DNA of 64,000 nucleotides from Actinostola sp. cb2023 (Eukaryota > Cnidaria > Anthozoa > Actiniaria > Actinostolidae). Shown here one piece after another: positions 12,532-60,480 of the stretch. Position 1 is the stretch's first letter. Each line of letters opens with the position of its first letter. Where the stretch lies: NCBI GenBank assembly GCA_033675265.1, contig JAUJYZ010001112.1, positions 1-64,000 on the forward strand, written 5' to 3'. Position numbers and translations under genes: made by a program. The notes beneath the pieces were generated by a model, which had not been told where the DNA came from, did not search any database, and was given only the letters and a program-made list of their open reading frames with translations.

Positions 12532-15500
12532 CTGTAAAGTAAACACAATATAAACAGTCGTTTTGAATTACTGGACACAAAGAGGTCAAATGAAGGAAAG
12601 TGAGGAACGAGGGGAGTGAATGACAACTTTATATAATCATGGTACATATTACTAATACATGCAATAGCAATAATGGTTTTTATGTAAACCGTGGTAAGAT
12701 TATCAATGATGAATGAGGATGAAGGAAGGGAGGAAGTGAGGGAGGAAGGGAGGGACGAAGGGAGGGAGGAAGCAAGGTAGGGAGGAAGGAAGGGAGGGAC
12801 GAAGGGAGGGACGAAGGGAGGGAGGAAGCAAGGGAGGGAGGAAGGAAGGAAGGGAGGAAGTGAGGGAGGGACGAAGGGAGGGAGGAAGCAAGGGAGGGAG
12901 GAAGGAAGGGAGGGAGGAAGCAAGGGAGGGAGGAAGGAAGGGAGGAAGTGAGGGAGGAAGTGAGAGAGGAAGAGGTACGAAGGGAGATAGGAAGCAAGGG
13001 AGGGAGGAAGAAGGAAGGAAGGGAGGAAGGGAGGGAGGAAGGGAGGGAGGAAGGGAGGGGGAGGAAGGGAGGGAGAAAGGGAGGGAGGAAGGGAGGGAGG
13101 AAGGGAGGGAGGAAGGGAGGGAGGGAGGAAGATAGGAAGAAAGGAAAGAACGGAGGAACGAGGGGAGTGAATGACAACTTTATATAATCATGGTACATAT
13201 TACTAATACATGCAATAGCAATGATGGTTTTTATGTAAACTGTGGTAAGATTATCAATGATGAATGAGGATGAAGGAAGGGAGGAAGTGAGGGAGGGAGG
13301 GACGAAGGGAGGGAGGAAGCAAGGGAGAGAGGAAGGAAGGAAGGAAGGAATGAAGGAAGGAAGGAAGGAAGGAAGGAAGGAAGGAAGGAAGGAAGGAAGG
13401 AAGGAAGGAAGGAAGGAAGGAAGGAAGGAAGGAAGGAAGGAAGGAAGGAAGGAAGGAAGGAAGGAAGGAAGGAAGGAAGGAAGGAAGGAAGGAAGGAAGG
13501 AAGGAAGGAAGGAGGAAGGGAAGGAAGGAAGGAAGGAAGGAAGGAAGGAAAGAAGGAAGGAAGGAAGACGGTAAAAGAGGCAAGGAGAGAGGAAAGGAGG
13601 GAGGGAGAAAGGGACAAGGAAGCAAGAGAAGGAAGAAAGAAAAAAAAGGAAGGATGGATGGAAAGAAGGAGGAAGGAAGGAAGGAAGGAAGGAAGGAAGG
13701 AGGAAGGGAGGTAGAAAGGGAGGAAGACAGGGAGGGAAAAAGGAAGGAAAGAAAATAAACAAATTAAAAGCGAAATAAACAATACCATTGGGTAAAGGTT
13801 CTGGTTCATGGACCACCGGTGTCGAATAATGCGGGCTTGTAGTTCTTAACAATTCCGGTCTTCTAGCTCTTTCTTTCCTCTTTGCACGGACAAAAGCTAT
13901 CACAACAAGTATGAGAATCAAGACAACCACAATAAAAGCAGTCAGTGCAGCATGAAAGCCTGTGTTGTTATCACTGGTGCCTCCGTCGCTCTCTTTGCTG
14001 TCTCTTACTTGTAAAAGTGGAACCGCTGACCCTGTGGGTGGCTCAATATGTGGTTTTGAAGTCGGCGGTACGAGGATGGGCGTGGTGCTTTGCTCGGTAA
14101 GTGGACGCGCTCTGACCGTTGGTGTCTTGTTCAATAGTCCCAAGCGCTCCTTCAAAGTCTTTGTTGCTGAAGACGTTTTAGTTCTTGCTAGCCATCCTGT
14201 ACCTCTTTTAGAAGTAGGAGGTGCTACTGTGGGGGGACAGCCAGGGTGTCGTGGTTTACACATTCCAACCTTTCTACACCCTAACGGTGCCTGATCTTTG
14301 TCATCATGGCAGCATTTATCGCATTGTAAACAGTCAAATACCACATCACTCTTGTAATAGCCCGCTAAACAGTCTCCACACTTGGCATTTCTGCGAGGGG
14401 TGCAGACTCTCTTCACGTATCTCTTCGAACAACGTCTACAGTCCACGCAAGGCCTTGTGTTAAAATGCCTCGAGTACTTCCCTCTCGGACAATTAATACA
14501 ATTGGCTAGAGTAGTGCCCACTACCGCCTTGGTGTTACACGGGATTGTATATTCCTGTCCTGGGGGACAATCTGGACACGGTAAACATTGAACAAACGTT
14601 CTATTCTGGTCAATCCAAGTAATTTGGCTTCCTGGACAGTTAGCTGCCTGAAATATAACATCATTGATCAATCAGGATACTTTCTACATGATATGTTTTC
14701 ACATAATATTATAATAATGGAATATCCTTGTCACGATTGTCATTGATTTCTTTTCGAGGGACAAAGGGGATGATTATTCGAGGGAGGAAGGGGTGAGTCT
14801 CCTGCTCCTTTCACTTTTGTACTGGAGGGAGGAAGGGGTGAGTCTCCTGCTCCTTTCACTTTCGTATTGGAGGGAGGAAGGGGTGAGTCTCCTGCTCCTT
14901 TCACTTTTGTACTGGAGGGAGGAATGGGTGTCTCCTACACCTTTCACTTTCGTATTGGAGGGAGGAAGGGGTGAGTCTCCTGCTCCTTTCACTTTCGTAT
15001 TGGAGGGAGGAAGGGGTGAGTCTCCTGCTCCTTTCACTTTTGTACTGGAGGGAGGAATGGGTGTCTCCTACTCCTTTCACTTTCGTATTGGAGGGAGGAA
15101 GGGGTGAGTCTCCTGCTCCTTTCACTTTTGTACTGGAGGGAGGAGGAAGGGGTGAGTCCCCTACTCCTTTCACTTTCGTACTGGAGGGAGGAAGGGGTGA
15201 GTCTCCTGCTCCTTTCACTTTCGTACTGGAGGGAGGAAGGGGTGAGTACCCTATTCCTTTCACTTTTGTACTGGAGGGAGGAAGGGGTGAGCCTCCTGCT
15301 CCTTTCACTTTTGTACTGGAGGGAGGAAGGAAATAATCATATTTAGCGTTTATAAACATAAATTTGGTATTTTAGCGCGGGTATTTTAGTCCTAATATGA
15401 TATGACAAAATACAAATTCGCTCTGAACTGAGATCTTTGCGACTGCCTGAAAGCACCATGGAGGTAGCAGCAAAATATTAATAAATTCGAAAACCTTTCA

Positions 15501-20855: not shown

Positions 20856-21178
20856 TCACAGTCCAGGAGATGGTTTGGTGAAGTGAGGCACCAGGATCTC
20901 GTATGCCTTTTTGTTAATATCCTTCAGTGTATTTGCAAAGTCGGGTACGGTGATGGGTGGACAAACCTCTATACATAGTTTGTCACAGAGGACCTTGCTC
21001 GGACTGCCGTTATCAACATGGATTAGACTTTTGATGGCCAACAAATCCTCATCTTTCAGGTTGTATTTTCTTGCGACTCTTTCAAAGTCCCATCTGCCAA
21101 GACGCCTTGTGTTATCAAGATGTTTATATAGCTTGTCCGCTGGCTCATTGAGATTGAGGAAGTCCTTCAAGAGCTGAT
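20856..21178 (-). CDS. TNFR-B exon 3: death domain
   Basis: Acceptor TTCTTTAG|AT. Codons run from DQLLKDFLNL to PSPGL-stop. Death-domain hallmarks: GRWDFERVARKY, DEDLLAIKSL, TVPDFANTLKDI. Confidence 0.88.
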
Positions 21179-24100
21179 CTAAAGAATGAAATGTTTTAAA
21201 TGTTATGATGGTTTGCAGACAATTTCTGAAAAAATTTCAAATTCATGTGACTTTTCCCTGACACAGTGTGTATCGAAAAACCATTCGCACCCAGAAACAT
21301 TTCAGAAATCGTTTATCGTTCGTAATGAACAATCTGAACTAACTCTCTAACTGGAAGAAGTTCGACTGATTTGTAGTCAGATAAACTTCTTGCAGTTAGA
21401 GAGTTGTTTCTATTTGTTCAACGAACAATAAACGATTTCTGAAATATTTCTGGGTGTCCAGTTTTTCGATTTGCACTGTAAAAGGTATTGCCTGGCCAAT
21501 TCCAAAATTTGCTGACTTTTCTCGACCTCAAAATCATTTCACTAATGATGAAAGACCTGGCAAATGATGTCATCGTATGCTTCAATATTCATTCAACTTT
21601 GATTATTTGCCAACAATCAGTGAATTGATCAATGAAAATTGAAGCCATTTGTCATGGTCTTGAGAACCCTGCTAATAGAGTTGTTTTCATGAGTGGGAAG
21701 TAGTTACAGTACGGTTCATGCTGTGCAGCGACTGTGCCATATCCAAGCATTCTGATAATTAGCTGCATGAGCAATGATTTTGCACACTGTGATTGGTTGA
21801 ATAGAATGTCTTTGATTTGATACCATGACGATAACTCCGTACAGTAGCTTTCTCACTCATATGAAAATCACTCTATTATATTATTGTACATGTACACATA
21901 CCATTGCTTCTATCAGGACAAGTCATTTCAATCATAGCAGTAGTTGCTTCATTCGTTGGGTCTCTGTCACTTCTTCTACAGCTGGATTTTCCCTTCCATA
22001 AATGACAGCCCCAGCACATTTTAACAGCAAACGCAACTACAAGGATCACTATAACTATGCAAAGTGATATCACAATAATCCAAGGCTTGAGGGATTTCCC
22101 TGTGTCATGTGCAGTTGTAAAAACAGCAGCAGCAGCAGTAGGGCCCTTTGTGGCTGACTTGACCATGGTTGGAGTCATCGTCTTCTGTTTTGATATAACT
22201 ATTGTATTACTGGGCTTTGGAGTGTCTGATACAGTGTCTGGCACAGTAGTTGGTACAGTAGCTGGTACTGTGTCTGCTGGTACAGTGTCTGCTGGTACAG
22301 TGGCAGGTGATGTGGTTGGTAACGTGGTTGGTAACGTGGTTGGTAACGTGGTTGGTAAAGTGGTTGGTGCACTGCTTGGGTCTCTTTTACATCTAAAGTT
22401 ATTTGGATCATAGACGTGACCTGTTAGACAACCATCACAAATGGCATTTTGATAGCTTGTGCATTTTTGTAGCACAACTTTCAGGGTGCATAAAGCACAT
22501 GGTTGACAAGCCTTGGTATTAAAGCCATCAGAGAATGTTCCAGGTAGACACATTATACATTTCCCATCTGTTCCTATATCCACTACATCGCCACAAGGAA
22601 TTGAATATTGCTGTGATTCAGGACATGGTGGACAAGCAGTACATGCTTCTATTAAACCTGTTGTTTTGTTCTTCCATGCAATGTCACTGGAAGAACATTT
22701 GATCGGTTTGCATTCAGAAGGACTGATCTGGAAAAGAAAGAAAATTGTTTGTAATAAATTTTGTAAAATTAATTTAAGGTGAGTTTGATGTTTTTTTTAA
22801 ATCTAGCTGACCTGACAGTTCTAGAATGTCTTGCACAAATGAACTATATAATAAAATAGCAGTTTCCTACTAAGGGGTGGATCATTAGAAATCTTGGGAG
22901 GGGGGGGGGGGGGGGGGGGGGGTGGGGCGAGGGGGGAATTTTTTTGAGCACGAATATTTTTTCTACCTGTATTTCTCTGCAGGATATTTTTTTCTCTCGA
23001 CTCTCACTGCTTTTCAAATTGATAAAATATTGTTGTCATTCCCGGGCTTGCTCACATTTCCAGTCACATTTTCACTACAGTGCTTTTCAACATTCTATGC
23101 CGACTCAGGCTCAACTCAGTACAGCCCCAGCTAGAAACATTCAGAATATCACTACAACTACCGGTAACTGTCATTAAGCTTTATAAATGTTTTATGATCA
23201 ACACGCCATAACTGAATAAGTACAAGGATTTCTTTCCTTAACCTTTATTTACTCAAAGAAGAGGCTTCAAATTAGGGAGATTTCAGCTGAACTAGTCATT
23301 TCCGATCGACTGAATCAGAGTCCAGTAGGTCACATTTTGCAATTTTTTTCGTGAACGTTTACGCATTAGATTCTCTCGAAAAGCCGAGCTGAGAGATTTC
23401 AGTGCCGTCTTCTGAATACATACCATAGCAAGCTCGTAAAAGAACGGTATTTATATAGGGAGCACAATTTGGCGAGCGATGAAGTCGCGAGTTCCTAAAG
23501 GGGTGCGGGGGTATGCTCCCCCGAATTTTTTTGAAGTATAGGGTCTTTGAAATAGCATTTCCTGCCTTCTGAGAGTATAGTTTCCAGTAAGTTTAAACTG
23601 ACAGAAAATTGAACTTCTGGCCGAATCGTATGGGAGTCTTACAGTGATACAACCCCCCTTAACCTAGTGATCCCCTCTCCCCCCAAATCTTATGACTAAA
23701 ATAATGACAGTTATTATTACTGGCTTTGTTTCTAGAAAAATAATGACAGCTCCCTTATAATGTTGTGTTAAGTTCCTCAATTAAGCTTTGTCTTTATCAA
23801 TTTGGTGTATTATTGCAAAAAATAATATACTACAGGGGTGGATCTCGAGATTTTGAAAGGGGGTGCTCCACTAAGGGACCGTAAGGCCCCTTCTTCTAGG
23901 GGGGTGTGGGGGCATGCTCCCCCAGAAAAGTTTGAAATCTAGAAGCTCGAAAATGCAATTTCCATCCATTCTGGGCATCAAATGGTGGGCAGACCGTGGG
24001 CGAATATGTATCGGGCCCAACTCAAAGGGGGGGCACCGGCTCCCCATGCCCCTCCCTTGGATCCGCCACTTGGTGTTTGATGTCTCACGACTTTACCAAC

Positions 24101-33342: not shown

Positions 33343-33689
33343 TTAGCATGCAGTTTCATCGATTATATCAACTCCAGGAGCTGGTTTGGTGAAGTGAGGC
33401 ACCAGGATCTCGTATGCCTTTTTGTTAATATCCTTCAGTGTATTTGCAAAGTCACGTACAGTGATGGGTGGACGAACCTCTATACATAGTTTGTCACAGA
33501 GGACCTTGCTTGGACTTCCATTTTCTACATGGATTAGACTTTTGATGGCCAACAAATCCTCCTCTTTCAACTTGTATTTTCTTGCAACCCTTTCAAAGTC
33601 CCATCTGCCAAGACACCTTGTGCTATCAAGATGTTTATATAGCTTGTCCACCGGCTCATCAAGATTGAGGAAGTCCTTCAAAAGCTGAT
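33343..33689 (-). CDS. TNFR-C exon 3: death domain
   Basis: Acceptor TTCTTTAG|AT. GRWDFERVARKYKLKEEDLL and later helices match TNFR-B closely; full-length C-terminus. Confidence 0.87.
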
Positions 33690-36600
33690 CTAAAGAAAGA
33701 AATGTTTTAAATGTTATGATGGTTAATTGCAGAATTTTAATTTTTGAAAAATGTCAAATTCCATGGCTTTTCACTGACTTGTGTGTCGAAAAACTGTGGG
33801 CACCCAGAAATAGTTCAGAAATCGTTTATCGTTTGATGAACAATATGTAACGACTCTCTAACTGCAAGAAGTTAGACTGATTTGTAGTCAGATAAACTTC
33901 TTGCAGTTAGAGAGTTGTTTCAGATTGATCAACGAACAATAAATGATTTCTGAAATATTTCTGGTTGCACATGGTTTTTCGATTCGCACTGTAAAAGGTA
34001 TTGCCTGGTCAATTCCAAAATTTGATGACTTTTCTCGACCTCAAAATCATTTCACTAACGATGAAAGAGCTGGCAAATGATGTCATCATATACTTCAATA
34101 TTCATTCAACTTTGTTTATTTGTCAACAATCAGTGAATCGATCAATGAAAATTGAAGCCATTTGTCATGGTCTTGAGAACCCTGCTAATAGAGTTGTTTT
34201 CATGAGTGGGAAGTAGCTACGTACGGTTCATGCTGTGCTGTGACTGTACGTGCCGTGACTGTGCCATATCCAACAAGCATTCTGGTTAGCTGCATGAGCA
34301 ATGATTTTGCACACTGTGATTGGTTGAATATAATGTCTTTGATTCTGTACCATGACCATAACTCCGTACCGTAGGTTTCCCACTCATATGAAAATGACTC
34401 TATTATATTAATGTACATGTACACATACATATTATTATTATTACCATTGCTTGTATTCATTTCAATCATAGGAGTAGTTGCTTCATTCGTTGGGTCTCTG
34501 GCACTTCTTCTACAGCTGGATTTTCTCTTCCATAAATGACAGCCCCACCACTTTTTAACATCAAACGCAACTACAAGGATCACTATAACTATACAAAGTA
34601 ATATCACAGTAATAATCCAATACTTGAGGGATTTCCCTGTGTCATGTGCAGTTGTAGAAACAGCAGCAGCAGCAGTAGGGCCCTTTGTGGCTGACTTGAC
34701 CATGGTTGGTATAGTGGTTGGTATAGTGGTTGGTATAGTGGTTGGTATATTGGTTGGCATAGTGGTTGGCATAGTGGTTGGCATAGTGGTTGGTATAGTG
34801 GTTGGTATAGTGGTTGGTATAGTGGTTGGTATAGTGGTTTGTATAGTAGTTGGCACAGTGTCTGCTGGTACAGTGGCAGGTGACGTGGCTGGTACAGTGG
34901 TTGGTAAAGTGGTTGGTGCACTGCTCGGGTTTCTTTTACATCTAAAGTTATGTGGATCATAGACGTGACCTTTTAGACACACACCACAAATAGCATTTTG
35001 ATAGCTTGTGCATTTTTGGAGGACAACTTTCAGGGTGCATAAAGTGCATGGTTGACAAGCCTTGGTATTAAAGCCATCAGAGAATGTTCCAGGTAGACAC
35101 ATTATACATCTCCCATTTGTTCCTATATCCACTTCATCACCACAAGGAATTGAATATTGCTGTGATTCAGGACATGGTGGACAAGCAGTACATGCTTCTA
35201 TTAAACCCGTTGTTTTGTTCTTCCATGCAATGTCACTGGAAGAACATTTGATCTGTTCACATTCAGAAGGACTGATCTGGAAAAGAAAGAAAATAATATT
35301 GTTTGTAATAAATTTTGTAAAATTAATTTAAGGTGAGTTTGATGTTTTTTTAAAATCTAGCTGACCTGACAGTTCTAGAATGTCTTGCACAAATGAACTA
35401 TATAATAAAATAGCAGTTTCCTACTTACAGTGTGGACACTCGAACCGTGAACACTTCAAGTTTTTTTCGAGCTTTTTTTTTCGAACTTTCTATTGCCTCA
35501 TAGCCTTTCAAATGGAACATTGAGTTTAATCAAAATAAATCATTTTTCTGATCAATTTGCTCAATGGATAATTTATAAATATGTGTTAGAAAAAAAACAA
35601 AGTGTTCACGGTTCGAGTGTCCACACTGTAATTAGTAAGGACACCTAAACTACAATAATAATAATCATTCAATTATAATAGTTCCCATCCCATGCCACTC
35701 CCACACCTACACACTAAAACTACACCTAAACTACAATAATAATAATCATTCAATTATAATAGTTCCCATCCCATGCCACTCCCACACTACACACTAAAAC
35801 TACACCTAAACTACAATAATAATAATCATTCAATTATAATAGTTCCCATCCCATGCCACTCCCACACCTACACACTAAAACTACACCTAAACTACAATAA
35901 TAATAATCATTCAATTATAATAGTTCCCATCCCATGCCACTCCCACACACTACATACTAAAACTACACCTAAACTACAATAATAATAATCATTCAATTAT
36001 GATAGTTCCCATCCCATGCCACTCCCACACCTACACACTAAAACTACACCTAAACTACAATAATAATAATCATTCAATTATAATAGTTCCCATCCCATGC
36101 CACTCCCACACCTACACACTAAAACTACACCTAAACTACAATAATAATAATCATTCAATTATAATAGTTCCCATCCCATGCCACTCCCACACCTACACAC
36201 TAAAACTACACCTAAACTACAATAATAATAATCATTCAATTATAATAGTTCCCATCCCATGCCACTCCCACACCTACACACTAAAACTACACCTAAACTA
36301 CAATAATAATAATCATTCAATTATAATAGTTCCCATCCCATGCCACTCCCACACTACACACTAAAACTACACCTAAACTACAATAATAATAATCATTCAA
36401 TTATAATAGTTCCCATCCCATGCCACTCCCACACTACACACTAAAACTACACCTAAACTACAATAATAATAATCATTCAATTATAATAGTTCCCATCCCA
36501 TGCCACTCCCACACTACACACTAAAACTACACCTAAACTACAATAATAATAATCATTCAATTATGATAGTTCCCATCCCATGCCACTCCCACACCTACAC

Positions 36601-47163: not shown

Positions 47164-47322
47164 TCAGAGCTGCTTATCAATCACGGCCAGTTTGTCTGTG
47201 GACGGTCCTCTCCACATCTCTTCTTCAGGTGAGTTTGGTAGTTCTCCAGATGGGGTGGTCACAGGTTGTAGTGGGTAGCTATAGTATGGCTCAGTAGGTA
47301 GGTGTTCGTACGATTGCGAATG
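47164..47322 (-). CDS. ATP2B: PMCA-like exon 9: C-terminal tail, residues 1033-1084
   Basis: Acceptor AACTCAAG|CAT; 52 codons of acidic/Pro/Tyr-rich sequence ending [13 protein letters not shown] (TGA at 47166-47164). The ending resembles a PDZ-type tail only loosely. Supported by phase and low-complexity tail composition; medium confidence. Confidence 0.65.
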   Translation of the reverse strand, partial: HSQSYEHLPTEPYYSYPLQPVTTPSGELPNSPEEEMWRGPSTDKLAVIDKQL

Positions 47323-50300
47323 CTTGAGTTAAAAAGACAAAAACAAAACATAACTGAAAAATTGCCTCACTCCACCCACATGTATAAATGGGTACATGAT
47401 TAATCTACATGTACATGGTAACTGCCTGAGGGAAAAACCTGCATTGTACATGTACAGACTGACTTGCATCCCATCTAATAAGTCTTACAAGTTACTGTAG
47501 CTAGCTAGAGTGCAAATATACTAAAACCATGAAACAACATTAACTCATTAGTGCTAAATAGCACCAATGAATCAATAGAAAACAGACGCCACACTATTTA
47601 GTGCTACATGTATTTAAAGTTAGTACTGTTTCATGGTTTTAGTGTTTGCACTCTATGTTGACAACTAAGGGAGTTACAACTAAGGGAGTTAAGCAGTGGC
47701 CAAATGCTACCCTGGTCCCAGAGCCACCGACATGCACTGCACTCTCTCTACTATATTTTGATCTGAAGCAGTGAGCTTGAATGTAGCTTCGTGGCTCTAA
47801 AATACAGTGGAGAGAGCGTATGTCAGTGGCTCTGGCACCAGGGTAGCCAAATGCCAAGGGTCTTTTGACTGGAGAATGGCCTTGACATTTTCACCAGTAG
47901 GATTACCTTTTGTGAGACTCTGGAGGTGTTTCTCATCAAGGTGATACGCCGTCCCTTTGGAGTACCTGTGGCACCACATCTGATAGACATTGGCAGCCAG
48001 GTTTTGGGGATAGAAAAGATAACCTGTGCCCATATGAGCTCAGAGAAACCAAAGAACAGGCACCACAACCACATCTCAAGCTCCATCCCAGATGTATGGA
48101 AGGCTCTTGTAAACACTTCAACTGTCAGAATCTGAAGTGACAGAAAATCAATGTTTGTGTCAAGGAATTGAATTTATTTGAAGGGACCGTGAATGTGACT
48201 TGTGATCAAAATCCAAATTCTCCCGTGGAATTCAAAGAGCCTCAAAGAGAATTTAGTGTTTGATCAGAGATCGCTCACATATACATATATGTTGTTCTTG
48301 CATGGACCCCTTCATTTATAAAACAATATAATCCATTTACCCTCCCATCCTTCTTTCCTTTCTTCCTTCCATCTTTAATTATTGATCAATCCATCAATCC
48401 ATTGTTTATTTCAACCATTCACTTTTCTCCTTCTCCTGTTCATTTCTTTTATATATTGGCAGTAAAACACTCTACATGTGTGCTGGACATATTCTAATAA
48501 ATAAAATAACATTCAGACAAAGAGTCTGGTTGTATACTGTACCTGCACAACAACTTCTAAGATCCAAATCATTATAAAAGTAAAGTTTCGGTGGATCCCT
48601 TGAAAGACGTTTCTTCCAATCACGTCCCTGCAGTTAATCTGATTAAACAGCTGCATAAACACAAATGACGTAAACACTAACGACGAATGCTGTGAAGGTT
48701 TACAGAAAGTTTCTGCCTGAAAGCCATCTTCGATGTCCAACATGTCGTCCCCGTGGAAAATCAGGAAGAACGAAATAATTACTTGGAATAGAACATGGCC
48801 GACGACATTGCGAATCAGTGAGCGACCAAGTATTGGTTTGTGTCGGCCATATGGTTTGTGTTTTAGGATGTCGTCAGATGGAACATCTCTTGTGAGGGTG
48901 AAGGATGCCAAGGAGTCCATGATTAGATTGATCCATAACATCTGTGTGGCTACTAATGGACTCCTCTGTGAAGTAGAAAATAAATCATTACAATTAATAA
49001 TCACTTGTCAAATGATTCTGTAAGACAGTCATCTGAGTGGGAAGCAGTTCAGTACAATTTGTGGTGTTTTCAAACTGCACAGTGACAAGTTTCATTGATC
49101 GTGTAGACGGTCGTCAACAAGTTTTTTTTGACAATTTTCAATTGACAAGGTTTCCTTGTTTGTGTAGACGATAAACAAGTTTTCCTTGGTGAGTTTCTGT
49201 TGTGCCCAAATTGCCTTTCAATCAGCGGAGCAACAAAAAAATTGACTCCAGTCTCCTGTCGAGCACAAACATATGGCGTCTGTAAAGACTGGGAACTAAA
49301 CTCATTAATATACCTTGCCACATTTTTCTTGTTGTCATTTTACATGAGCAAATTTCGGCCTTGACAACTTTTCCACTAGTGAAAACCAGGGCTTTACTAT
49401 ACATTTCAAAGAGCTGTCAAAATAAATGCAAAGTCTTACCCCAAAGATACAAGCCCCAACCACAATTACAATGAAGGCAGACCAAGTTATAATAAACTGG
49501 AACTGTAGGAACTTAATGACAGTGTTAAAGACATTTCTGCCCCACTTGACAGCCCAGACAATACTGCCAAAGTTGTCATTTAGAAGGATGACATCTGCAT
49601 TCTCTTTGGCGACATCTGAACCAGCCACACCCTACAACAAATACATAAAGGGGTTAAACCTAATAGACCAGGCAGGGTTGTTGCTGACTGATGGCAGGGA
49701 CAATGGTCAGGAATTGCAAAATAAAGGGCAAGGGGTAGTTCTGAGGTTATGTTAGTAGACAAGCATTGTTAATTCAATTATTGATGTTAACAATTAATAA
49801 TATTGTCATAAATACCCAACATACAGTATAGGGAAGTCACAAAGAACTTGTAAATTTTAAAATGGGTCAAAACTACCCAAGCTGCAGCTTATGTTATATG
49901 AGCTCAAACCCCTAGGCTTGGCTACATGTAAGACACAGCTTAAGTTAAAAGACCTCAAACCCCTACGCTTGGCTACATGTAAGCCACACCTTAAGTTAAA
50001 AGACCTCAAACCCCTACGCTTGGCTACATGTAAGACACAGCTTAAGTTAAAAGACCTCAAACCCCTAGGCTTGGCTACATGTAAGACACAGCTTAAGTTA
50101 AAAGACCTCAAACCCCTACGCTTGGCTACATGTAAGACACAGCTTATTGTTAAAAGACCTCAAACCCCTAGGCTTGGCTACATGTAAGACACAGCTTAAG
50201 TTAAAAGACCTCAAACCCCTACGCTTAGCTACATGTAAGACACAGCTTAAGTTAAAAGACCTCAAACCCCTACGCTTGGCTACATGTAAGACACAGCTTA

Positions 50301-53300
50301 AGTTAAAAGACCTCAAACCCCTACGCTTGGCTACATGTAAGACACAGCTTAAGTTAAAAGACCTCAAACCCCTAGGCTTGGCTACATGTAAGACACAGCT
50401 TAAGTTAAAAGACCTCAAACCCCTACGCTTGGCTACATGTAAGACACAGCTTATTGTTAAAAGACCTCAAACCCCTAGGCTTGGCTACATGTAAGACACA
50501 GCTTAAGTTAAAAGACCTCAAACCCCTACGCTTAGCTACATGTAAGACACAGCTTAAGTTAAAAGACCTCAAACCCCTACGCTTGGCTACATGTAAGACA
50601 CAGCTTAAGTTAAAAGACCTCAAACCCCTACGCTTGGCTACATGTAAGACACAGCTTAAGTTAAAAGACCTCAAACCCCTACGCTTGGCTACATGTAAGA
50701 CACAGCTTAAGTTAAATGACCTCAAACCCCTACGCTTGGCTACATGTAAGACACAGCTTATTGTTAAAAGACCTCAAACCCCTAGGCTTGGCTACGTGTA
50801 AGACACAGCTTAAGTTAAAAGACCTCAAACCCCTACGCTTGGCTACATGTAAGCCACACCTTAAGTTAAAAGACCTCAAACCCCTACGCTTGGCTACATG
50901 TAAGACACAGCTTAAGTTAAAAGACCTTAAACCCCTAGGCTTGGCTACATGTAAGACACAGCTTAAGTTAAAAGACCTCAAACCCCTACGCTTGGCTACA
51001 TGTAAGACACAGCTTATTGTTAAAAGACCTCAAACCCCTAGGCTTGGCTACATGTAAGACACAGCTTAAGTTAAAAGACCTCAAACCCCTACGCTTAGCT
51101 ACATGTAAGACACAGCTTAAGTTAAAAGACCTCAAACCCCTACGCTTGGCTACATGTAAGACACAGCTTAAGTTAAAAGACCTCAAACCCCTACGCTTGG
51201 CTACATGTAAGACACAGCTTAAGTTAAAAGACCTCAAACCCCTACGCTTGGCTACATGGACACAGCTTAAGTTAAATGACCTCAAACCCCTACGCTTGGC
51301 TACATGTAAGACACAGCTTATTGTTAAAAGACCTCAAACCCCTAGGCTTGGCTACGTGTAAGACACAGCTTAAGTTAAAAGACCTCAAACCCCTACGCTT
51401 GGCTACATGTAAGACACAGCTTAAGTTAAAAGACCTCAAACCCCTAGGCTTAGCTACATGTAAGACACAGCTTAAGTTAAAAGACCTCAAACCCCTAGGC
51501 TTAGCTACATGTAAGACACAGCTTAAGTTAAAAGACCTCAAACCCCTACGCTTGGCTACATGTAAGACACAGCTTAAGTTAAAAGACCTCAAACCCCTAC
51601 GCTTGGCTACATGTAAGACACAGCTTAAGTTAAATGACCTCAAACCCCTACGCTTAGCTACATGTAAGACACAGCTTAAGTTAAAAGACCTCAAACCCCT
51701 AGGCTTAGCTACATGTAAGACACAGCTTAAGTTAAAAGACCTCAAACCCCTACGCTTGGCTACATGTAAGACACAGCTTAAGTTAAATGACCTCAAACCC
51801 CTACGCTTAGCTACATGTAAGACACAGCTTAAGTTAAAAGACCTCAAACCCCTAGGCTTAGCTACATGTAAGACACAGCTTAAGTTAAAAGACCTCAAAC
51901 CCGCAGGCTTAGCTACATGTACATGTAAGACACAGCTTAAGTTAAAAGACCGCGAAACCCCTACGCTTGGCTACATGTAAGACACAGCTTAAGTTAAAAG
52001 ACCTCGAACCCCTACGCTTGGCTACATGTAAGACACAGCTTAAGTTAAAAGACCTCAAACCCCTACGCTTAGCTACATGTAAGACACAGCTTAAGTTAAA
52101 AGACCTCAAATCCCTAGGCTTAGCTACATGTAAGACACAGCTTAAGTTAAAAGACCTCAAACCCCTAGGCTTAGCTACATGTAAGACACAGCTTAAGTTA
52201 AAAGACCGCGAAACCCCTAGGCTTAGCCAAGCCACAGGTTAAGTTAGACAATGCCAAACCCCTAGGCTTAGCTAAGCCACACCTTAAGTTAGATGACCTC
52301 AAACCCCTAGGCTTAGCTAAGCCACACCTTAAGTTAGATGACCTCAAACCCCTACGCTTAGCTAAGCCACACCTTAAGTTAGACGATCTCAAACCCCTAG
52401 GCTTAGCTAAGCCACACCTTAAGTTAGATGACCTCAAACCCCTAGGCTTAGCTAAGCCACACCTTAAGTTAGATGACCTCAAACCCCTAGGCTTAGCTAA
52501 GCCACAGCTTAAGTTAGACAATGTCAAACCCCTAGGCTTAGCTAAGCCACACCTTTAGTTTGACAACGTCAATCCCCTAGGCTTAGCTAAGCCACAGCTT
52601 AAGTTACATGACCTCAAACCCCTAGGCTTAGCTAAGCCACACCTTAAGTTAGATGACCTCAAACCCCTAGGCTTAGCTAAGCCATGGCTCAGTTTAAAAT
52701 GTGCTGTTTTGAACCACAAAGCATAGCAATCTAAAATGTTAGTCACGCTTACCATAGTAAAGCCAACATCTGCTTTCCTCAGGACTGGTCCATCATGGAT
52801 ACCTGATCCTGTAACAGCTACAATCTCTCCCTGTGGCTGCAGGTGGCTCTCCATGATTCCTTTAACAAGAGTATACTTATCTCTAGCTGAAGACCTGGCC
52901 AGGACACGGAGCTTTGGCCACATGGTGTTAAACCTGTCATTATTGATCTGGTGAAGCAATATTGGTGGAAATATTGTCCAGTAATACAGTACTGCTTAGA
53001 AGTATGTTAACATTTTTTGTGTGTAGGGAACTTCTGTGTGGAGTCTGTGTGGGGTCCTAGTGTAGACTACACTCAACTTTTCCCCTCATTACAGGCGTGA
53101 CTGACTTTTACATTTACATACAGCCGTTAATTTGTGTTTCCGAAAGAAATTGCATATGTCTAGAAATACACGTACGATGTTGAATCAACTGAACTTCTAT
53201 TTTCATCAGCTTGTGTCATATTTATTGAAATGTCTGATTCAAACATCTTACAAACAAACAAATTACAACATGCTTTTCCATTTCTGTCGGAACTTTACCA

Positions 53301-56300
53301 TAAAGTAGAACATCATGCAAGCCTGAAGAAAGTTTCATGTACAGGGCTTATGGTAGGATGCGCGGATGCGGAACCACATAATTTGGCTTGCTCCGCATAA
53401 TCCGTATAATCCGGCAATTCCCGTATAATCCCGCATAATTTGGAGAAATTTGTAGAAAATCATAAAACAGGTATCTATTTTCACTATTTCTCAAAGATTC
53501 TTCTCAGTAGATTTCCTTCCCAAATCGTCGAACATTATTATTATTATTATTGGACAATTCACAACGGGAATGACAACTTAGGCGTTCTATGTTGAAAACC
53601 GCAGGGGCTTGTTGTCTAAATTTCGATAGAACGTGTCTGTGTTTACATAAATTTTCTGTGGGAAAACGTGAATTCTTTTGAAATCGAGTTTCTCCACAGC
53701 ATTTTGCGAGTTCAATTATGGTTTAAAAACATGGATAATTTTGTTGTAACAGAGGAAATTAAACGGAAACATCACGAAGCGATAAATGTTTCAGCTCGAG
53801 ATCGAGTAAATCAATACCCACGTGCAATCTTGTACGGAATACTTAGGTTCAGTTGACGTTTAATGTAGACTTTCTTGTACATAGATTTTTTTCAACTACC
53901 GGATGTTTATTTCGGCCGTTTGTAAATATCGCGTTACGAAAGAAAACTGAGAATATGCAAATTATTGTGAGAACGGCTCTCTCTGATTGGTCGGAAACAG
54001 CCCTTAATAATGAAGGACTCATTCATTTCAAGTTTCAATTCAGTTTCAAAAGGACAGGAATGAAGCATGCAAGAGAAAGTGCCTCTAATTTGAAGCAATA
54101 TAAGCTTGTTTGAAGTGAAACACGATTAAACAATTTTATTTCTGCTAAAAATGAATGACGTCATCCGGCATAATTTTCCGCATAATTCGCGATTTTCCCC
54201 ACATAATTCCCCAAAAAATCCTGCATAATTTTGATTTCCCCCCGCATCCTACCATAAGCCCTGTATGTATCTTCACTTTACAATAAGACGATAAAGGTGG
54301 CGAAAAGTTTAAAATAATGATGATAATAATATTGATGATGATGGCATCATCATACGTATTTTTACTTATTCAACATGAGTGACAGTGGTGTATGTGATTG
54401 ACAAACTAGAGCTGAAGGTGTGGCATTGGCTGACGGCATGCAGCAAACATCACAGTTATTATTTATAACCCCAAGCTACAATGTAGTATTATGGTGGACT
54501 AGACTACCTCAGCGAATAGGGGACTAAGAGGTCATGTGACGTCACCTTCTTAAATCAAGTAACAGAAAATTTGCATATGTACTCATATCGAGTTGCTCTT
54601 TTCATTTCTGGAGTTCATTTTGACACTGCTGTTCGATTGAAGGGGCGGGGTCACGTGACCTCTTAGTGCAAGTCCCCCATTACATCTATCTCAGTGTGTG
54701 CAACTGTGGCAATTGTTTTAAGGTGATTGAAGCAAACAGAGTAAACCTTTACCTGGCCATTTGGATCTCTGATGTAATTATTAAAGTCTTGTCCATTGTA
54801 AATAAGGTAATCTTCTTGTGGTCTGATGATACCACATTTAATGGCTACAGCCCTTGCTGTGTTCACGTGATCACCAGATACCATACACACTCTAATACCA
54901 GCCATTGTACACTTGTTGATAGCTTCTGGCACCTAGGAATAACACATTGAATAAATTACTTCATGCAAGTTGAACCTCAGCTCGGTCGCCTCCTTACATT
55001 AACACCCATGTGTCTAATAATAGGTACACAATCAATGCAGAGGGTCCAACCATTTCATATGTACTGTACAATGTACAAAGTCTTATGTGACAAAATGAAA
55101 TTCAGTTAAGGTTAAATTCAAGACAATGTTGGCCAACAGTTCTCATGTGAGACTGCGACCATGTGTATGTTCTGCAATTGAAGGGTTCCCTGCAAGAACA
55201 ACGTAAGTGATCTCTAATCAAAATCTAAATTCTCTTCGAGATTCTTTGAATTTCAAAGGAGAATTTGGGTTTTGATCACAAGTCACTTACTCCGTTCTTG
55301 CAGGGAGCCCTTCAATTGCATTCTGAGTGTTTGTTGATTCTTGTGGATCACTGTCAGAGTGCTTGCTTGTGCATACTGTGAATTGTAGCAGATTCATTTC
55401 TAGCACCCATCCCTGTCCGTGGTCTTCGCTTAGGGTAAGTATTGGTTAGGTAAGTACTCCACTGTTTTATGCAGTGTGACATGAGCTCGGAGGTGATGGA
55501 CTGTGACAGGGTTGCCATGGTTACCTCATTGATGTGTTTGGACATGCAGCGCCAGCACATCAACCTTACGGCACCTAATCCCAATGCTCATCTACTGGCG
55601 ATGAGTTTAAATATTGCTTATTTATTTACATTTAGGAATGTGAACCAAATGTACAGCATGTACTTATACACTGTATTCAAGCATGTACCTCTTCTCTGAC
55701 TGGGTCTTCAATACCAACAACGGCCAACAATGTAAGATTGGATAACACTGAGTCTTCCTTTTCAAAGTCTACATCATCTAATATGTACAACAAAGACACT
55801 ATGTAAGATTTTATTGGATATAGTAATCAATATGGTACACATGCTGTGATTGGTCGAGCGCCGTGTATTATTGGAGTACAGACACACAGATGTAGTTGCA
55901 AAATAATGACGTTGCAAATTTTCTCAAACTATTAGATTTATTCTGTTTTGCTGTGTGTCTGTACGCTTGTACTATAGTTGCACAGAGAGACATCAACATG
56001 TGGTGAGAACAACAGTCACGTCACAAAAAATATATTTGATGTAAATCTAGAATAATATTTGTAATGTATAATAAAGTTTGTTATTAATAAAAATAAAAAT
56101 AAATAAAAAATATAAAAAATAAAGAAATAAAAAAACAGTCACGTCACTTGACTTCGTCTCGTGGCATACTTTTTTGTTCTCACCACATTCACGTCAAAAT
56201 TAGAGTTCCGTCTGTGTTGTAGTGCAGTAGTTTGCATGGGTGACTTAGGGGCCGTCGACATATTCACCTTTCCCCGCTTAACGTCCACTGGACGTTTAGG

Positions 56301-59300
56301 TCAGACCCCCTCCCCCCCTCCCTCCTTAACGTCCACTTGGAATTTCCTGTTTTTCGTATTGAAAATGCGTGGGAATGGTTTTGCATTCGGCAACATGACT
56401 CAAAACAAACGGTAGCAAACAACAGTCCATGGTTCTTTATGCCTCTGGAAAATCCTCAAAACTGCGCCCATTCCATGTAGTTCACTTCATTTTCCTTAAT
56501 AACACTTATTTTGTATCCGCTCTATATCTTGCCTCTACGACTAATTCTGGCTATTACTTGTGCACAATATATTCGGTCAGTCTCTGCCATTTTGTCCGAC
56601 TAATTCCCAATGAACGCTGGGATACCACAGGTAATCCAAGCATTCTCGTACCTAAGCCACCGCAAACAGAGGTGGTCCATGATTTTTGATAGTTTATATC
56701 AGAATCTATTTATATAACACCGAAGTTTGTAAGAACGTACCACCAGTTTGTTCGTTTTATCTTTGCTTTCTTTTTGTTTTCAACATGAAGTAAAAAAAAT
56801 CTTTTTTTTTTAAATGCCCCACACTAACGTCCAAATTTTTTCCCGCCTTATCCCCTCCCCCCCTAAACGTCCAGTGGACGTTAAGCGGGGAAAGGTGAAT
56901 ATGTCGACGGCCCCTTAGTGGGAAAGGATGACAAGTAGTGGGGGATAAGGAGAAGGGAGGGGAGAGAAAGAGCAGAGGGAGGAAGAGGAACATGGCTTTT
57001 CTGTTCTTCACTCTCTTTCTGATTTACTCTCCCTTTTCTCACTGTCATCCAAAATCACAGCTGCACTAGCCTCCTTTGCAGATGTTCTTAGAGGGCGGTC
57101 CTAAAAACCCAAATTTAGGACCACCCCAAAGGACGTCAGCAAAGGAGACTACAGCTGTGCAAGCTAGTATTGAATCTCGACTGTAGTCTAAATTATTGAT
57201 TCAAATTATTTGATCCAAAGAAAAGCATGGACAACATCTTGACATTCTTGAGGGAAGGTGCCACCTCAGAAACCTCAAGTCTGTATGTCTACTGCTAATG
57301 AAATGATTGGTTTTAAATCATCTCTCTGAATAGTCTCAGTGTCAGGATATGAAAATCCAACCAACCAACTCAATTATATAGCGAAGTCCTGACAAAAGTA
57401 GTCCAAAACTAAAGAAACGGGGAATATCTGTTTAGATGTATAACAATAGTTAAAAAAAAAAAGTCTTACAATAGTAATAGTTACAATAGTCTTAGTTTAT
57501 TTTAATTAATTAGCAATTATTAATAATTCCTTGCATTTATTTTCTAGAATTAAATCTTTCATTTCAGTATTTATTATTAGTATTGCCCATATTCCTGTAT
57601 TGAAGCTGTGACAAGTACAGTATAAAGTCGTTTTCATATGAGTGGGAAACCTACGGTACCATGACACTCAAGTGGCTTCCTTTCTAGACCAATCAAAAAG
57701 CATGCAGATGTATCTCATCCAATCAAAGTCTTTCAATATGGCATGGGATGGTACCGTAATGTTCCCACTCGTACGCAAATGACTCTATTGTTAGTGAATT
57801 ACCTTCCTCTGAGACACTTCTACTTGCCAAGCATACAATCCTCAATGCTTGTTCTTGCATGGGGTTAATCACGTCACTCAGCACCCTCTCCACATCTTCC
57901 TTATCAAAAGTCTTTAACTGGCCATCAGTAGAATATGTCGATACACATCTTGGCAATATGATCTCTGCGGCACCTTTGGTGTAGATTTTATATACTCCTT
58001 TTTCAGGCCTAGTAACGGTCGTCATGGATTTCCTCGCAGGTGTGAACTCATATAGTTTAGTGAAGCTTTCTTCAGGATTGTCATCGCGCCATTGCTGGTA
58101 GGTCTCACCGATGTCAATAATGAATTGAAGCACTGCGCAGTCTGTCATGTTACCAGCTTGAATTGGTAGTTTATCTGGACTCGTAGATGGCTGTACAATT
58201 TTTAAATAGTTGTCAATGAATGCTGTTAAGTTACATTAAATAATTTAGGTGCTATAATTTTATCACAGCCAAAATGTGTTTGCACAAAAAGTGATTCTCA
58301 GTGGAAGCGACAACTGGCAGAATTATTCTGTCTGTCAAGACAAGAGTAGCTTTCTGTTCTGCTTTAAAATTGAAGGGGTCCCTGCAAGAATGGAGTAAGT
58401 GACTTGTGATCAAAACCCAAAATCTCCTTTGAAATTCAAAGAATCTTGAGGAGAATTTAGATTTTGATCAGAGATCACTTACGTTGTTCTTGCAGGGAGC
58501 CCTTCAATTTGCCTCTGTGTGTTAACTTGTACAGAAATATTGTCACTACACACCTGCTTTGGGCCAGCTGTCTATAAATCTACTGAGAACACTGTAGCCT
58601 AGTACATGTACTACATATTCTGCTGGTTTCGTTCAGAATACGTATATTTTATAATTGAATAATAATAATTATTGATAAATAAACACATATAAATAAAATT
58701 AAGAAAAAAATAACAAATAAGGAAATGAAACTATAGTGTACGCAAATCAATATTGATCACTGTAATACACACAAACAAAGAAAATTATTATCCATGGATA
58801 AGGAATAATTATTCCGAACCAGAAATTGTTGTTGATGAATTGTAGTACCTTAGTGACACATCTTAGTAGTAATGTTAATCTCCTTCACAGCCATTTTTAA
58901 GAGTGAGACTAAAAACAGCTGCAAAGGAGACTGTGGTAATATGAACACAAGAATAATTTTTTTTCATATTATTCATATTATAACAAAAATTACAATAATA
59001 TTTGGAGAGAAAAAAATACAAAAAAGTAAAATGTAAAATGTTGTAAAATGTTAATAAATTGTAAAGTAAAACTTACAATAATTCTTGAAGTATAACTTGT
59101 ATTAATAGAAATACCCTTGCAAAGCTCCACAAACAGATTGCTGGGTATCTTCTCCTTATAGCTCCTTGGATCTCCCTCCAATACTTTATTTGTTGTGTAG
59201 AGCTTAGTCACATGCATGCGGTGCTCAGTAAGGACACCAGTTTTATTGCAACAAATGTTTGTTATGTTGCCCATAGTCTCAATGATCTCCATGTTCCTCA

Positions 59301-60480
59301 CCAAACTCTGGTTATCATACATCATTTTGGTGCAAAATGCAAATGCAAAAGTGGCTGCAAGTGGGAGGCTCTCTGGAATAGACACAACAAGGACGACCAT
59401 GCCCATGATGAAAGCCCTGACATACTCGTTGATATGCCGTGGATGAAATTCAAGGCCTTGCTGAGAGTATGCATGGACACTGAATCTGATCATGATGACG
59501 AGCATGGTTACTAGAGCGATGGCTACTCCTACGTAGCCAAGGCCGATGGCAACTTTGTTAATCTTTCCTTGCAGCGTACAATTATCCTCCTTGTGTTTTC
59601 TCAGTAGGGTAAGATTTTCTTTGCTTTGCTGCTCATTGTCTATATTTATTTCCAAGTTGCTGGGTCGTTTGACAACCTTAGCTTTTAATGTGGCCTGATG
59701 TATCTTGGTTGACTCACCGACAGCAAGGACGATAAATCTTGCATTCCCACGGGTGACGTGGGTTCCTGAATATATCAGTGGGTCACCATTCACATCTTTA
59801 CCAACAAGACCACTGCTTGCCAATGCTAATTCATTAACTTCTAGATCAGTACTTTGGACAATGATGCCATCAGCAGGAACAACAGAGCCACTCTCAACGA
59901 TACAAAGCTCACCAACTGTTAAGTTCTCACGCAGTATCTCCTTGATGTCACCATCCCGTACAACAATGACTTTCTGCTCCAAGTGCACTCGCTTTTCTTG
60001 GTAGCGGAAGTCTGAATCCTTTAAGTAATCACTTAGTGCAGATACGAATACCATTACTATGACCATCACAAGGATGCCAATACCTTCATACCATGCAACC
60101 ACAATCTTATCAGTTCCATCACACCTCTCAGGAAAGACAATGCCCAGGATGAGTGACAATAGAGCCCCTATTGCAAGAACCATCAGCACCCAATCCCGCA
60201 TTGCATTCAAAAGAAGGCCGAAGAAACTTTTAGGAGGACTCAGAGGGACTGAGTTAACTCCAAAGACACCACAACGGTGAGTTAGAGCCTCTTCAAAACC
60301 CATCACCCCTTGCTTTTGTGAAGTGTGCAACTTTCTGATGATGGTGTTGAGACCACTGTCAAAGTTGTCTTCAAGGAATCGTAGCACTTCTTTTCCTGGT
60401 TGCTCCATGACTTCCACCAGTCTCTCTCTCGTCAAGTCTGCAAAGTTAGGGATTGCTCTATGGTCTGTATGGTCTGCCAT
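47164..60480 (-). CDS. ATP2B: PMCA/ATP2B-like P-type ATPase with degenerate catalytic motifs (9 exons, 1084 aa): probable pseudoenzyme
   Basis: Nine exons join with consistent phases and GT/AG sites. The order is that of PMCA: TM1-2, actuator, TM3-4, P, N, P, TM5-10, short tail. Family-specific stretches are clear: [53 protein letters not shown]. Function-deciding residues are changed: the phosphorylated Asp of DKTGT is Asn412 (NKTGV), TGES is SSGL (222-225), TGDGTND is TGSGIHD (733-739). Kept: KGA(A)E (540-544), GDHVNTA, DPVR, Glu370 of PESLP, Asn829 and Asp833. In true PMCAs this cycle expels Ca2+ across the plasma membrane; without the aspartyl-phosphate site it should not pump. No stop or frameshift is present, so it is not an ordinary pseudogene. 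The tail lacks an evident Trp-anchored calmodulin-binding helix. Possible roles (Ca2+ sensor, scaffold, regulator of real pumps) are inference. Confidence 0.9.
47506..47655. mobile_element. MITE, 'tagagtgcaa' family, copy 2 (PMCA-like intron 8)
   Basis: Ends tagagtgcaaatatactaaa and its complement; interior tgtatttaaagttagtactg as in copy 1. Confidence 0.75.
47707..47846. mobile_element. 'ctaccctggt' MITE with 7-bp TSD, copy 1
   Basis: Ends ctaccctggtcccagagcca and its complement. CCAAATG on both sides (47700-47706, 47847-47853). Inserted in intron 8 of the PMCA-like gene. Confidence 0.88.
47907..48131 (-). CDS. ATP2B: PMCA-like exon 8: residues 958-1032, TM10 and start of tail
   Basis: Acceptor CACTTCAG|ATT. 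TM10 is [20 protein letters not shown]. The tail [17 protein letters not shown] follows and the donor AAG|GTAATC was chosen because it keeps phase into exon 9. Confidence 0.8.
48187..48290. mobile_element. Fragment of the 'cttgtgatcaaaat' MITE family
   Basis: gtgacttgtgatcaaaatcc ... tttgatcagagatcgctcac, the core of the elements at 55173-55320 and 58368-58509; further cores near 19440-19530 and 29330-29405. Confidence 0.65.
48543..48965 (-). CDS. ATP2B: PMCA-like exon 7: residues 817-957, TM6-TM9
   Basis: Acceptor TTCACAG|AGG, donor CAG|GTACAG. Carries the TM6 Ca2+-site motif INLIMD (Asn829, Asp833), [16 protein letters not shown]7, TM8 ([11 protein letters not shown]) and TM9. Confidence 0.92.
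49440..49631 (-). CDS. ATP2B: PMCA-like exon 6: residues 753-816, TM5
   Basis: Acceptor TTGTTGTAG|GGT, donor [28 protein letters not shown], then KFLQFQ and TM5 ([19 protein letters not shown]). Confidence 0.9.
49890..52690. repeat. 51-bp / 45-bp minisatellite in PMCA-like intron 5
   Basis: About 46 units of agacacagcttaagttaaaa + gacctcaaacccctacgctt + ggctacatgta (51 bp), then from ~52220 about ten units of a 45-bp relative lacking the catgta piece. A unit with cttattgttaaaag recurs every ~250-310 bp, giving higher-order periods (50142, 50449, 50752, 51003, 51308). Both unit lengths divide by three, so several frames stay open. Confidence 0.97.
52753..52947 (-). CDS. ATP2B: PMCA-like exon 5: residues 688-752
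   Basis: Acceptor CTTCACCAG|ATC, donor ATG|GTAAGC. Encodes [20 protein letters not shown] and the altered P-domain motif [18 protein letters not shown]. The Mg2+-coordinating first Asp is Ser735 and the Asn is His738; Asp739 is kept. Confidence 0.9.
53341..54264. mobile_element. 924-bp inverted-terminal element in PMCA-like intron 4
   Basis: Ends acagggcttatggtaggatg and its exact complement, with ATGT flanking both sides. Subterminal repeats ccgcataat / cataattcc. Interior ORFs (62 and 86 codons) show no transposase motif. Confidence 0.85.
54753..54932 (-). CDS. ATP2B: PMCA-like exon 4: residues 628-687
   Basis: Acceptor TTCCTAG|GTG, donor CAG|GTAAAG. Encodes [26 protein letters not shown] (TGDNVNTARAIA in PMCAs; the Asp is kept). 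Confidence 0.9.
55173..55320. mobile_element. 148-bp MITE with splice-like ends, PMCA-like intron 3
   Basis: Ends tgcaattgaagggttccctg / cagggagcccttcaattgca. A GTAAGT at 55203 and a TTCTTGCAG at 55295-55303 frame a 101-base interior. The other strand has the same signals. Confidence 0.8.
55689..55777 (-). CDS. ATP2B: PMCA-like exon 3: residues 598-627
   Basis: 89-bp exon with acceptor ATATTAG|AT and donor GAG|GTACAT. Encodes [16 protein letters not shown], the DPxR hinge before the second half of the P domain. Confidence 0.9.
56245..56917. mobile_element. 673-bp inverted-terminal element, PMCA-like intron 2
   Basis: Ends taggggccgtcgacatattc / gaatatgtcgacggcccctta. Subterminal cgcttaacgtccactggacg mirrored at the right. 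Interior ORFs unrecognised. Confidence 0.85.
57626..57785. mobile_element. 'gagtgggaa' MITE, PMCA-like 3' of exon 2
   Basis: agtcgttttcatatgagtgg + gaaacctacggtacc, mirrored by ggtaccgtaatgttcccact. Related sequences lie in intron 2 of TNFR-B (~21685-21870) and TNFR-C (~34195-34400). Confidence 0.7.
57803..58190 (-). CDS. ATP2B: PMCA-like exon 2: N domain, residues 469-597
   Basis: Acceptor TTGTACAG|CC, donor GAAG|GTAATT. Contains [11 protein letters not shown] (GNKTECALL in PMCAs), ARKSMTTV and the ATP-site [11 protein letters not shown]. Confidence 0.9.
58368..58509. mobile_element. 142-bp MITE with splice-like ends, PMCA-like intron 1
   Basis: Same family as 55173-55320. GTAAGT at 58395 and TTCTTGCAG ending 58495 again frame exactly 101 bases. 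Confidence 0.8.
59077..60480 (-). CDS. ATP2B: PMCA-like exon 1 (coding): residues 1-468
   Basis: Start chosen at ATG 60480 (aaaATGg), just after a possible acceptor CTACAG|GC near 60502 that would splice a 5'-UTR exon; an in-frame ATG at 60516 is the alternative. Encodes TM1-TM4 and the actuator domain with SSGL in place of [13 protein letters not shown] (Ca2+ site) and CCNKTGVLT in place of CSDKTGTLT. The Asn codon is AAT at 59247-59245. Donor ATT|GTAAGT. A single 1.4-kb exon for this part is unusual for animal PMCA genes, which normally split it. Confidence 0.92.

Follow-up and report, generated by a model that had tools for sequence, protein, structure and literature searches.

The 64,000 nucleotides of DNA analysed here (the window) contain a PMCA-type gene, PSE1, whose product is almost certainly dead as a catalyst and is very probably maintained by selection as a protein. 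A second gene of the same genome, on contig C806, has lost the same catalytic functions, and in both genes the Ca2+ ligands of the pump are retained. The reading that we favor, with somewhat better than even confidence, is that PSE1 is a Ca2+-binding pseudo-pump that has been retained for a role other than catalysis, which we infer to be that of a scaffold or a regulator.

Gene structure and family membership

The model of PSE1, drawn from sequence alone like that of the C806 gene, comprises the following elements.

47164..60480, minus strand: PSE1, PMCA-type pseudo-pump, sequence-based model of nine exons and 1084 aa
59077..60480, minus strand: exon 1, residues 1-468, with the N-terminus, M1-M4, the A domain and the phosphorylation loop
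57803..58190, minus strand: exon 2, nucleotide-binding (N) domain, KGA retained
55689..55777, minus strand: exon 3, hinge, DPVR retained
54753..54932, minus strand: exon 4, P domain, with SGD for TGD
52753..52947, minus strand: exon 5, P domain, with GSGIHD for GDGTND
49440..49631, minus strand: exon 6, M5, Q797 retained, latch Asn changed to T801
48543..48965, minus strand: exon 7, M6 with N829 and D833 retained, then further helices
47907..48131, minus strand: exon 8, last transmembrane region
47164..47322, minus strand: exon 9, C-terminal tail, positioned from frame and splice site, not from homology

The spliced frame is 3255 nt long and runs through 1084 codons without an internal stop. 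Every intron, eight in all, has a GT donor and an AG acceptor. The start codon is of our choosing; an in-frame ATG 36 bases upstream precedes a likely splice acceptor. PSE1 scores 689.2 bits against the PMCA-type model TIGR01517, above its curated cut-off of 507.05, and 858.8 bits against human PMCA1. Judged by these scores, it is a full-length member of the family and not a chance open reading frame. Five domains are above cut-off and follow one another in the order of a PMCA, namely PF00690 (Cation_ATPase_N), PF00122 (E1-E2_ATPase), PF13246 (N-domain), PF00702 (HAD) and PF00689 (Cation_ATPase_C). By descent, the predicted protein is a P2B Ca2+-ATPase (PMCA). A Pfam profile search at E 1e-3 gives no match in PSE1 to PF12424, the calmodulin-binding autoinhibitory domain.

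Most of intron 5 is occupied by a large minisatellite (49885-52684 of the window), with 51-base units in about 52 copies and 45-base units in about 14 copies. Elsewhere in the window, two similar receptor-like ORFs lie on the minus strand (21876-22796 and 34200-35327). Both match the TNFR cysteine-rich domain PF00020, the second above cut-off and the first just below it. Downstream of each, on the same strand, is one of a pair of related ORFs of 126-136 aa (20856-21236 and 33343-33753), for which a Pfam search gave no match. A further ORF on the minus strand (12680-14671) is cysteine-rich and receptor-like and then runs into a long low-complexity repeat of Leu, Pro, Ser and Phe.

Loss of the catalytic loops

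P-type ATPases are defined by the aspartyl-phosphate that they form, and it is in their TGD and GDGxND loops that Mg2+ and phosphate are held. In alignments that include human PMCA1, ACA8 of plants and ACT1, the active neighbouring gene (see below), four catalytic loops of PSE1 are each altered, at the following places.

59245..59247, minus strand: codon AAT (plus strand ATT), Asn412 in CCNKTGVLT, in place of the phosphorylated Asp
59812..59820, minus strand: phosphatase loop of the A domain, TGES changed to ASS (residues 221-223), Glu gone
54876..54878, minus strand: S646 (TCT), in place of the Thr of TGD
52795..52806, minus strand: S735-G-I737-H738 (TCA GGT ATC CAT), in place of the first Asp, the Thr and the Asn of GDGTND

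The initial annotation had placed Asn412, encoded by AAT, at the P-type phosphorylation site, and this is confirmed by the plus-strand ATT and by a gap-free alignment of 22 residues with the phosphorylation region of human PMCA1. The loop as a whole has changed from DKTGT to NKTGV. The same annotation called the gene otherwise intact over its nine exons, which holds for the frame and the splice sites but not for the enzyme, as the TGES, TGD and GDGxND loops are altered too. In the A domain LTGES has become L-ASS, so that the loop is one residue shorter. Within the catalytic loops K413, D648 and D739 are still present, and so are the nucleotide-binding Lys of the N domain (KGA) and the DPVR of the hinge. 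In the text available from PMC10654040, the Asp is assigned to phosphorylation, the A-domain Glu to the phosphatase step and the N-domain Lys to ATP binding. The predicted PSE1 protein thus lacks features that define a catalytic P-type ATPase: the phosphorylated Asp, the Glu of TGES and the TGD and GDGxND loops in their active form.

The loops have not been lost significantly faster than other invariant columns. Among columns invariant in active pumps, PSE1 keeps 14 of 26 in the catalytic loops versus 196 of 283 elsewhere (Fisher p 0.13), so that 87 of these 283 other sites are altered in it. The corresponding numbers for the C806 gene are 11 of 26 and 169 of 282 (p 0.10, also non-significant). 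Since this bulk test is non-significant for both genes, the case for dead catalysis rests on which residues have changed.

The active neighbour and tandem origin

On the same contig, just beyond the window, lies ACT1 (C1445:81935-66613, minus strand), with canonical TGES, DKTGT, TGD and GDGTND motifs, 60.6% identity to human PMCA1 over 944 columns, and a PF12424 match of 43.0 bits. ACT1 is upstream of PSE1 in head-to-tail arrangement, with about 6.1 kb between the end of ACT1 and the start of PSE1. Six of the eight introns occupy identical alignment columns in the two genes with the same phase, and the other two agree in phase and fall in gapped stretches. The two proteins are 43.5% identical. 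From the adjacency, the common orientation, the intron plan and this level of identity, PSE1 looks like an old tandem duplicate of a PMCA. In a dN/dS comparison of PSE1 with ACT1, dS is undefined by NG86, and LWL85 gives dN 0.50 and dS 2.08, the latter saturated.

The trees, with ACA8 as the far taxon, bear on this origin as well. ACA8 pairs with PMCA1, and the dead clade is thereby joined to ACT1, in 191 of 200 replicates of the N-half alignment, in 192 for the whole alignment, and in 194 for the whole alignment with the full C806 model. The C-half tree gives no decision between ACA8 with PMCA1 (70/200) and ACT1 with PMCA1 (81/200).

A second inactive pump in the genome

The PMCA-like gene on contig C806 has Lys (AAG) at the site of the phosphorylated Asp, in the loop CVKKHGVLT. 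Its other loops are also altered: the A loop reads L-KQS, TGD has become TGA, and the GDGTND region reads ASGIHD. In its hinge the DP of DPVR is lost (EETR). Up to the last placed exon, the frame of the model stays open through 1027 codons, in nine exons that are bordered by GT-AG; the last exon is unplaced. A spare N-domain-like exon (C806:361125-361521) and an exon-1 end (C806:361552-361761) are present between exons 3 and 4, next to an extended stretch of simple repeat, and the model leaves out the spare N-domain-like exon (361521-361125). The locus may consist of two fused tandem copies or two partial genes, or it may carry alternative exons.

In searches of the genome (424 Mb), exon 1 of PSE1 gives at least eight matches: PSE1 itself, ACT1 (two pieces), C806 (one), C464 (two pieces), and two weaker ones, which are other P-type pumps with normal DKTGT. 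Exon 7 gives at least five, namely PSE1, ACT1, C806 and two pieces of C1222. PF00122 has 16 matches in the genome, and the analysis covered all of them but one on C1435 and those on C30 and C963. At least three PMCA-type loci (PSE1, ACT1 and C806) are found after removal of redundant contigs. C464 is a redundant copy of C806, 99.3% identical, with 11 mismatches and 46 gap openings in 11.3 kb (exon 1 has one single-base gap and no substitution), and it was dropped from all counts, so that the second dead gene is not counted again as an allele or a duplicate contig. C1222, a candidate for a fourth PMCA with stops, was likewise dropped: it is a gap-noisy copy of the 3' end of ACT1 (97.6% identity to C1445:64158-68350, with 9 mismatches and 80 gap openings). 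Its match to the 3' end of ACT1 extends over 4.2 kb, beyond which it diverges from C1445, and it would thus appear to be chimeric or a structural variant.

Shared loss followed by retention

PSE1 and the C806 gene group together in every tree. FastTree gives their grouping local support of 1.000 (N-half), 0.999 (C-half) and 1.000 (whole), and it is recovered in 200 of 200 bootstraps with each of these alignments, which overlap. The result is the same with the whole C806 gene model in the tree (support 1.000, 200/200), and in the quartet without ACA8 the two split off together, again in 200/200. Out of 310 columns invariant in the three active pumps, 63 are altered in both dead genes, and in 19 of the 63 the replacement is the same, including D735S, T737I, N738H, T416V and N801T. 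The two genes also have in common the block SGIHDGP and the deletion of one residue in the TGES loop. The unanimous grouping, the 19 identical replacements and the common deletion indicate that inactivation most likely preceded the split of PSE1 and C806. Both genes have diverged fast (branch lengths of 0.42-0.60 for PSE1 and 0.30-0.51 for the shared stem), and since the taxa are few and the branches fast, long-branch effects may have some part in the grouping, although the common TGES deletion and the block SGIHDGP speak against such an artefact.

After the loss, the proteins continued to be constrained. Over 1001 codons, PSE1 and C806 differ by 0.47, 0.334 and 0.68 at the three codon positions, compared with 0.726, 0.732 and 0.75 for unrelated sequence. 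Their fourfold sites are saturated (a difference of 0.728 over 180 sites). Since second positions differ by only 0.334 when fourfold sites are saturated, purifying selection is judged to have acted on both proteins since their shared inactivation. With its catalytic residues lost, its gene under selection and its fold predicted from homology, PSE1 would count as a pseudoenzyme. The initial annotation had taken it for a kept pseudoenzyme, and the four altered loops, the open gene, the second dead paralogue and the purifying selection after the shared loss bear that proposal out. A search for outside relatives was of little use for a eukaryotic gene: prokaryote contigs gave four bacterial loci that encode relatives, at 23-25%, and viral contigs gave none.

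The Ca2+ site and the release latch

The residues that bear on ion binding and release are at the following positions, as located by alignment.

59371..59373, minus strand: E370 (GAG), Ca2+ ligand in M4, equivalent to PMCA1 E433 and PMCA2 E412, retained
48915..48929, minus strand: N829 to D833, Ca2+ ligands in M6, equivalent to PMCA1 N891/D895 and PMCA2 N869/D873, retained
49485..49487, minus strand: T801 (ACT), at the position of the PMCA2 latch N841

The Ca2+ site of human PMCA1 is given as E433, N891 and D895 (PMC6127144, in the part available). The single Ca2+ site of a PMCA, made of the M4 Glu and the M6 Asn and Asp, is thus predicted to be present in PSE1, and the ligands are retained in the C806 gene also. 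Q797 of PSE1 aligns with Q837 of PMCA2, a member of what is termed the Q837-D873 bracket in the accessible text of PMC12488499. According to the same text, N841 of PMCA2 acts as a latch, which interacts with PtdIns(4,5)P2 and then participates in Ca2+ release. This position is Asn in four of four aligned active pumps (PMCA1, PMCA2, ACA8 and ACT1) and Thr in both PSE1 and the C806 gene. The comparison of the lipid pocket covered K347 and Q351 of PMCA2, K334 being unmatched in numbering. At the K347 position PSE1 has Lys and C806 has Trp, and even ACT1 fails to retain Q351.

Alternatives to a retained pseudo-pump

Asn412 could be the product of a sequencing or assembly error, or of RNA editing, with the real protein being an active pump. 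A-to-I editing could make AAT read as Asp, and the assembly does contain indel-noisy redundant contigs. Such an origin is extremely unlikely, and a single error or editing is rejected as the whole story, because neither could restore the lost TGES Glu, S735 (TCA), H738 (CAT) or V416 (GTC), and because in the C806 gene the site is occupied by Lys (AAG) and the other losses are shared. It is very unlikely that PSE1 is an active ATPase of changed chemistry, for example one in which ATP binding and hydrolysis are regulated without a phospho-enzyme. Nucleotide binding may indeed persist, as KGA and DPVR are retained, but GDG has lost its first Asp and ND its Asn as well (S735 and H738), and in the C806 gene the DP of DPVR is also missing.

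The fast evolution seen in the PSE1 branch and in the stem shared with C806 is in keeping with a pseudogene early in decay or with a protein that is now unused. We regard this as unlikely: the 1084 codons contain neither a stop nor a frameshift, every splice site is intact, the constraint on codon positions persists after the shared loss, and a second, equally dead gene has also been kept open. A Ca2+ leak or channel, in which the pump scaffold with its ion site would conduct Ca2+ passively for want of gating driven by phosphorylation, draws on the pattern, seen in two genes alike, of retained ion ligands combined with altered catalytic loops and an altered release latch. It too is improbable, as pumps of the PMCA kind open the ion site to one side at a time and no feature in our analysis marks an open pore. 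The Ca2+ site of PMCA1 is described as cytosol-facing (PMC6127144, in the part available).

Proposed role of PSE1

In the reading of PSE1 as a retained pseudo-pump, a tandem duplicate of a PMCA would no longer form or hydrolyse the aspartyl-phosphate but would still fold as a PMCA, with the single transmembrane Ca2+ site present. The protein would reside in the membrane, in a state that is E1-like and binds Ca2+, would be unable to run the cycle, and may still bind ATP and Ca2+. Its effect would then come from binding, in that it serves in a Ca2+-dependent way as scaffold or regulator for the active pump or for a Ca2+ channel; the action of SPCA2 on Orai1 is a model for the latter. We put the chances that PSE1 is such a Ca2+-binding scaffold or regulator at about even. 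Loss of the latch (N841 to Thr) and of a calmodulin-binding tail that can be recognised as such is in keeping with a protein no longer subject to the controls of a pump. More speculatively, PSE1 and C806 might represent a Ca2+ pump lineage turned membrane Ca2+ sensor, where Ca2+ binding would switch the binding of a partner and drive no transport. This is suggested by the retention of the transport site and the Q-D bracket, the Thr at the latch in both paralogues and the loss of the ATP chemistry, and we regard it as rather unlikely.

Relation to known systems

The closest known system is the PMCA itself (P2B; human PMCA1, 6a69, and PMCA2, 9gsd), which PSE1 resembles in full-length homology, domain order and the E/N/D Ca2+ site with Q797, and whose exon plan, as found in the neighbouring active gene ACT1, it follows. 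It differs from the PMCAs in having neither the phosphorylatable Asp, the TGES Glu, the first Asp and the Asn of GDGxND, the latch Asn, nor a match to the PF12424 tail. For a function beyond pumping, the nearest likeness is SPCA2, also a P-type Ca2+-ATPase. In the portion of PMC7827456 available, SPCA2 activates Orai1 without ATP hydrolysis, and the pump-dead Asp-to-Asn mutant D379N still raises resting Ca2+, a pump-independent function thus surviving Asn at the phosphorylation site. The D379N mutant is a direct precedent for Asn at this site stopping pumping. However, natural SPCA2 pumps and D379N is a laboratory mutant, whereas the loss in PSE1 is natural and extends to four catalytic loops.

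Other P-type relatives resemble PSE1 in part. The P4-ATPase-like domain of Plasmodium GC-beta is naturally degenerate, with most signature residues unidentified, but it is described among the P4 (lipid) type domains of guanylate-cyclase proteins (PMC6592433), and it is no stand-alone copy of a Ca2+ pump with a retained ion site. A UniProt survey found 22 of 9,634 P-type ATPases without an intact DKTGT, an alteration that PSE1 has in common with them. Unlike PSE1, these are reported as single point mutations, some of them perhaps sequencing errors according to the authors, and no duplicated clade dead at several loops is described in the available part of that survey (PMC3896382). In Caenorhabditis elegans, a pump-independent function has been suggested for the P-type ATPase CATP-1, but CATP-1 has its Asp (D409), it is a Na,K-type pump, and its pump-independence is debated (PMC11631496, in the part available). 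Among open-licence papers, none was found with both "pseudoenzyme" and "P-type ATPase", and among the papers listed by related searches there, none names a P-type pseudoenzyme.

Two such dead genes coexist with an active pump in one genome. Pump-independent functions of these proteins are otherwise argued from laboratory mutants, and PSE1 and C806, with natural damage to four loops and long retention, would provide a native case. PSE1 may also offer a direct test of whether the ion site of a pump can, on its own, act as a sensor.
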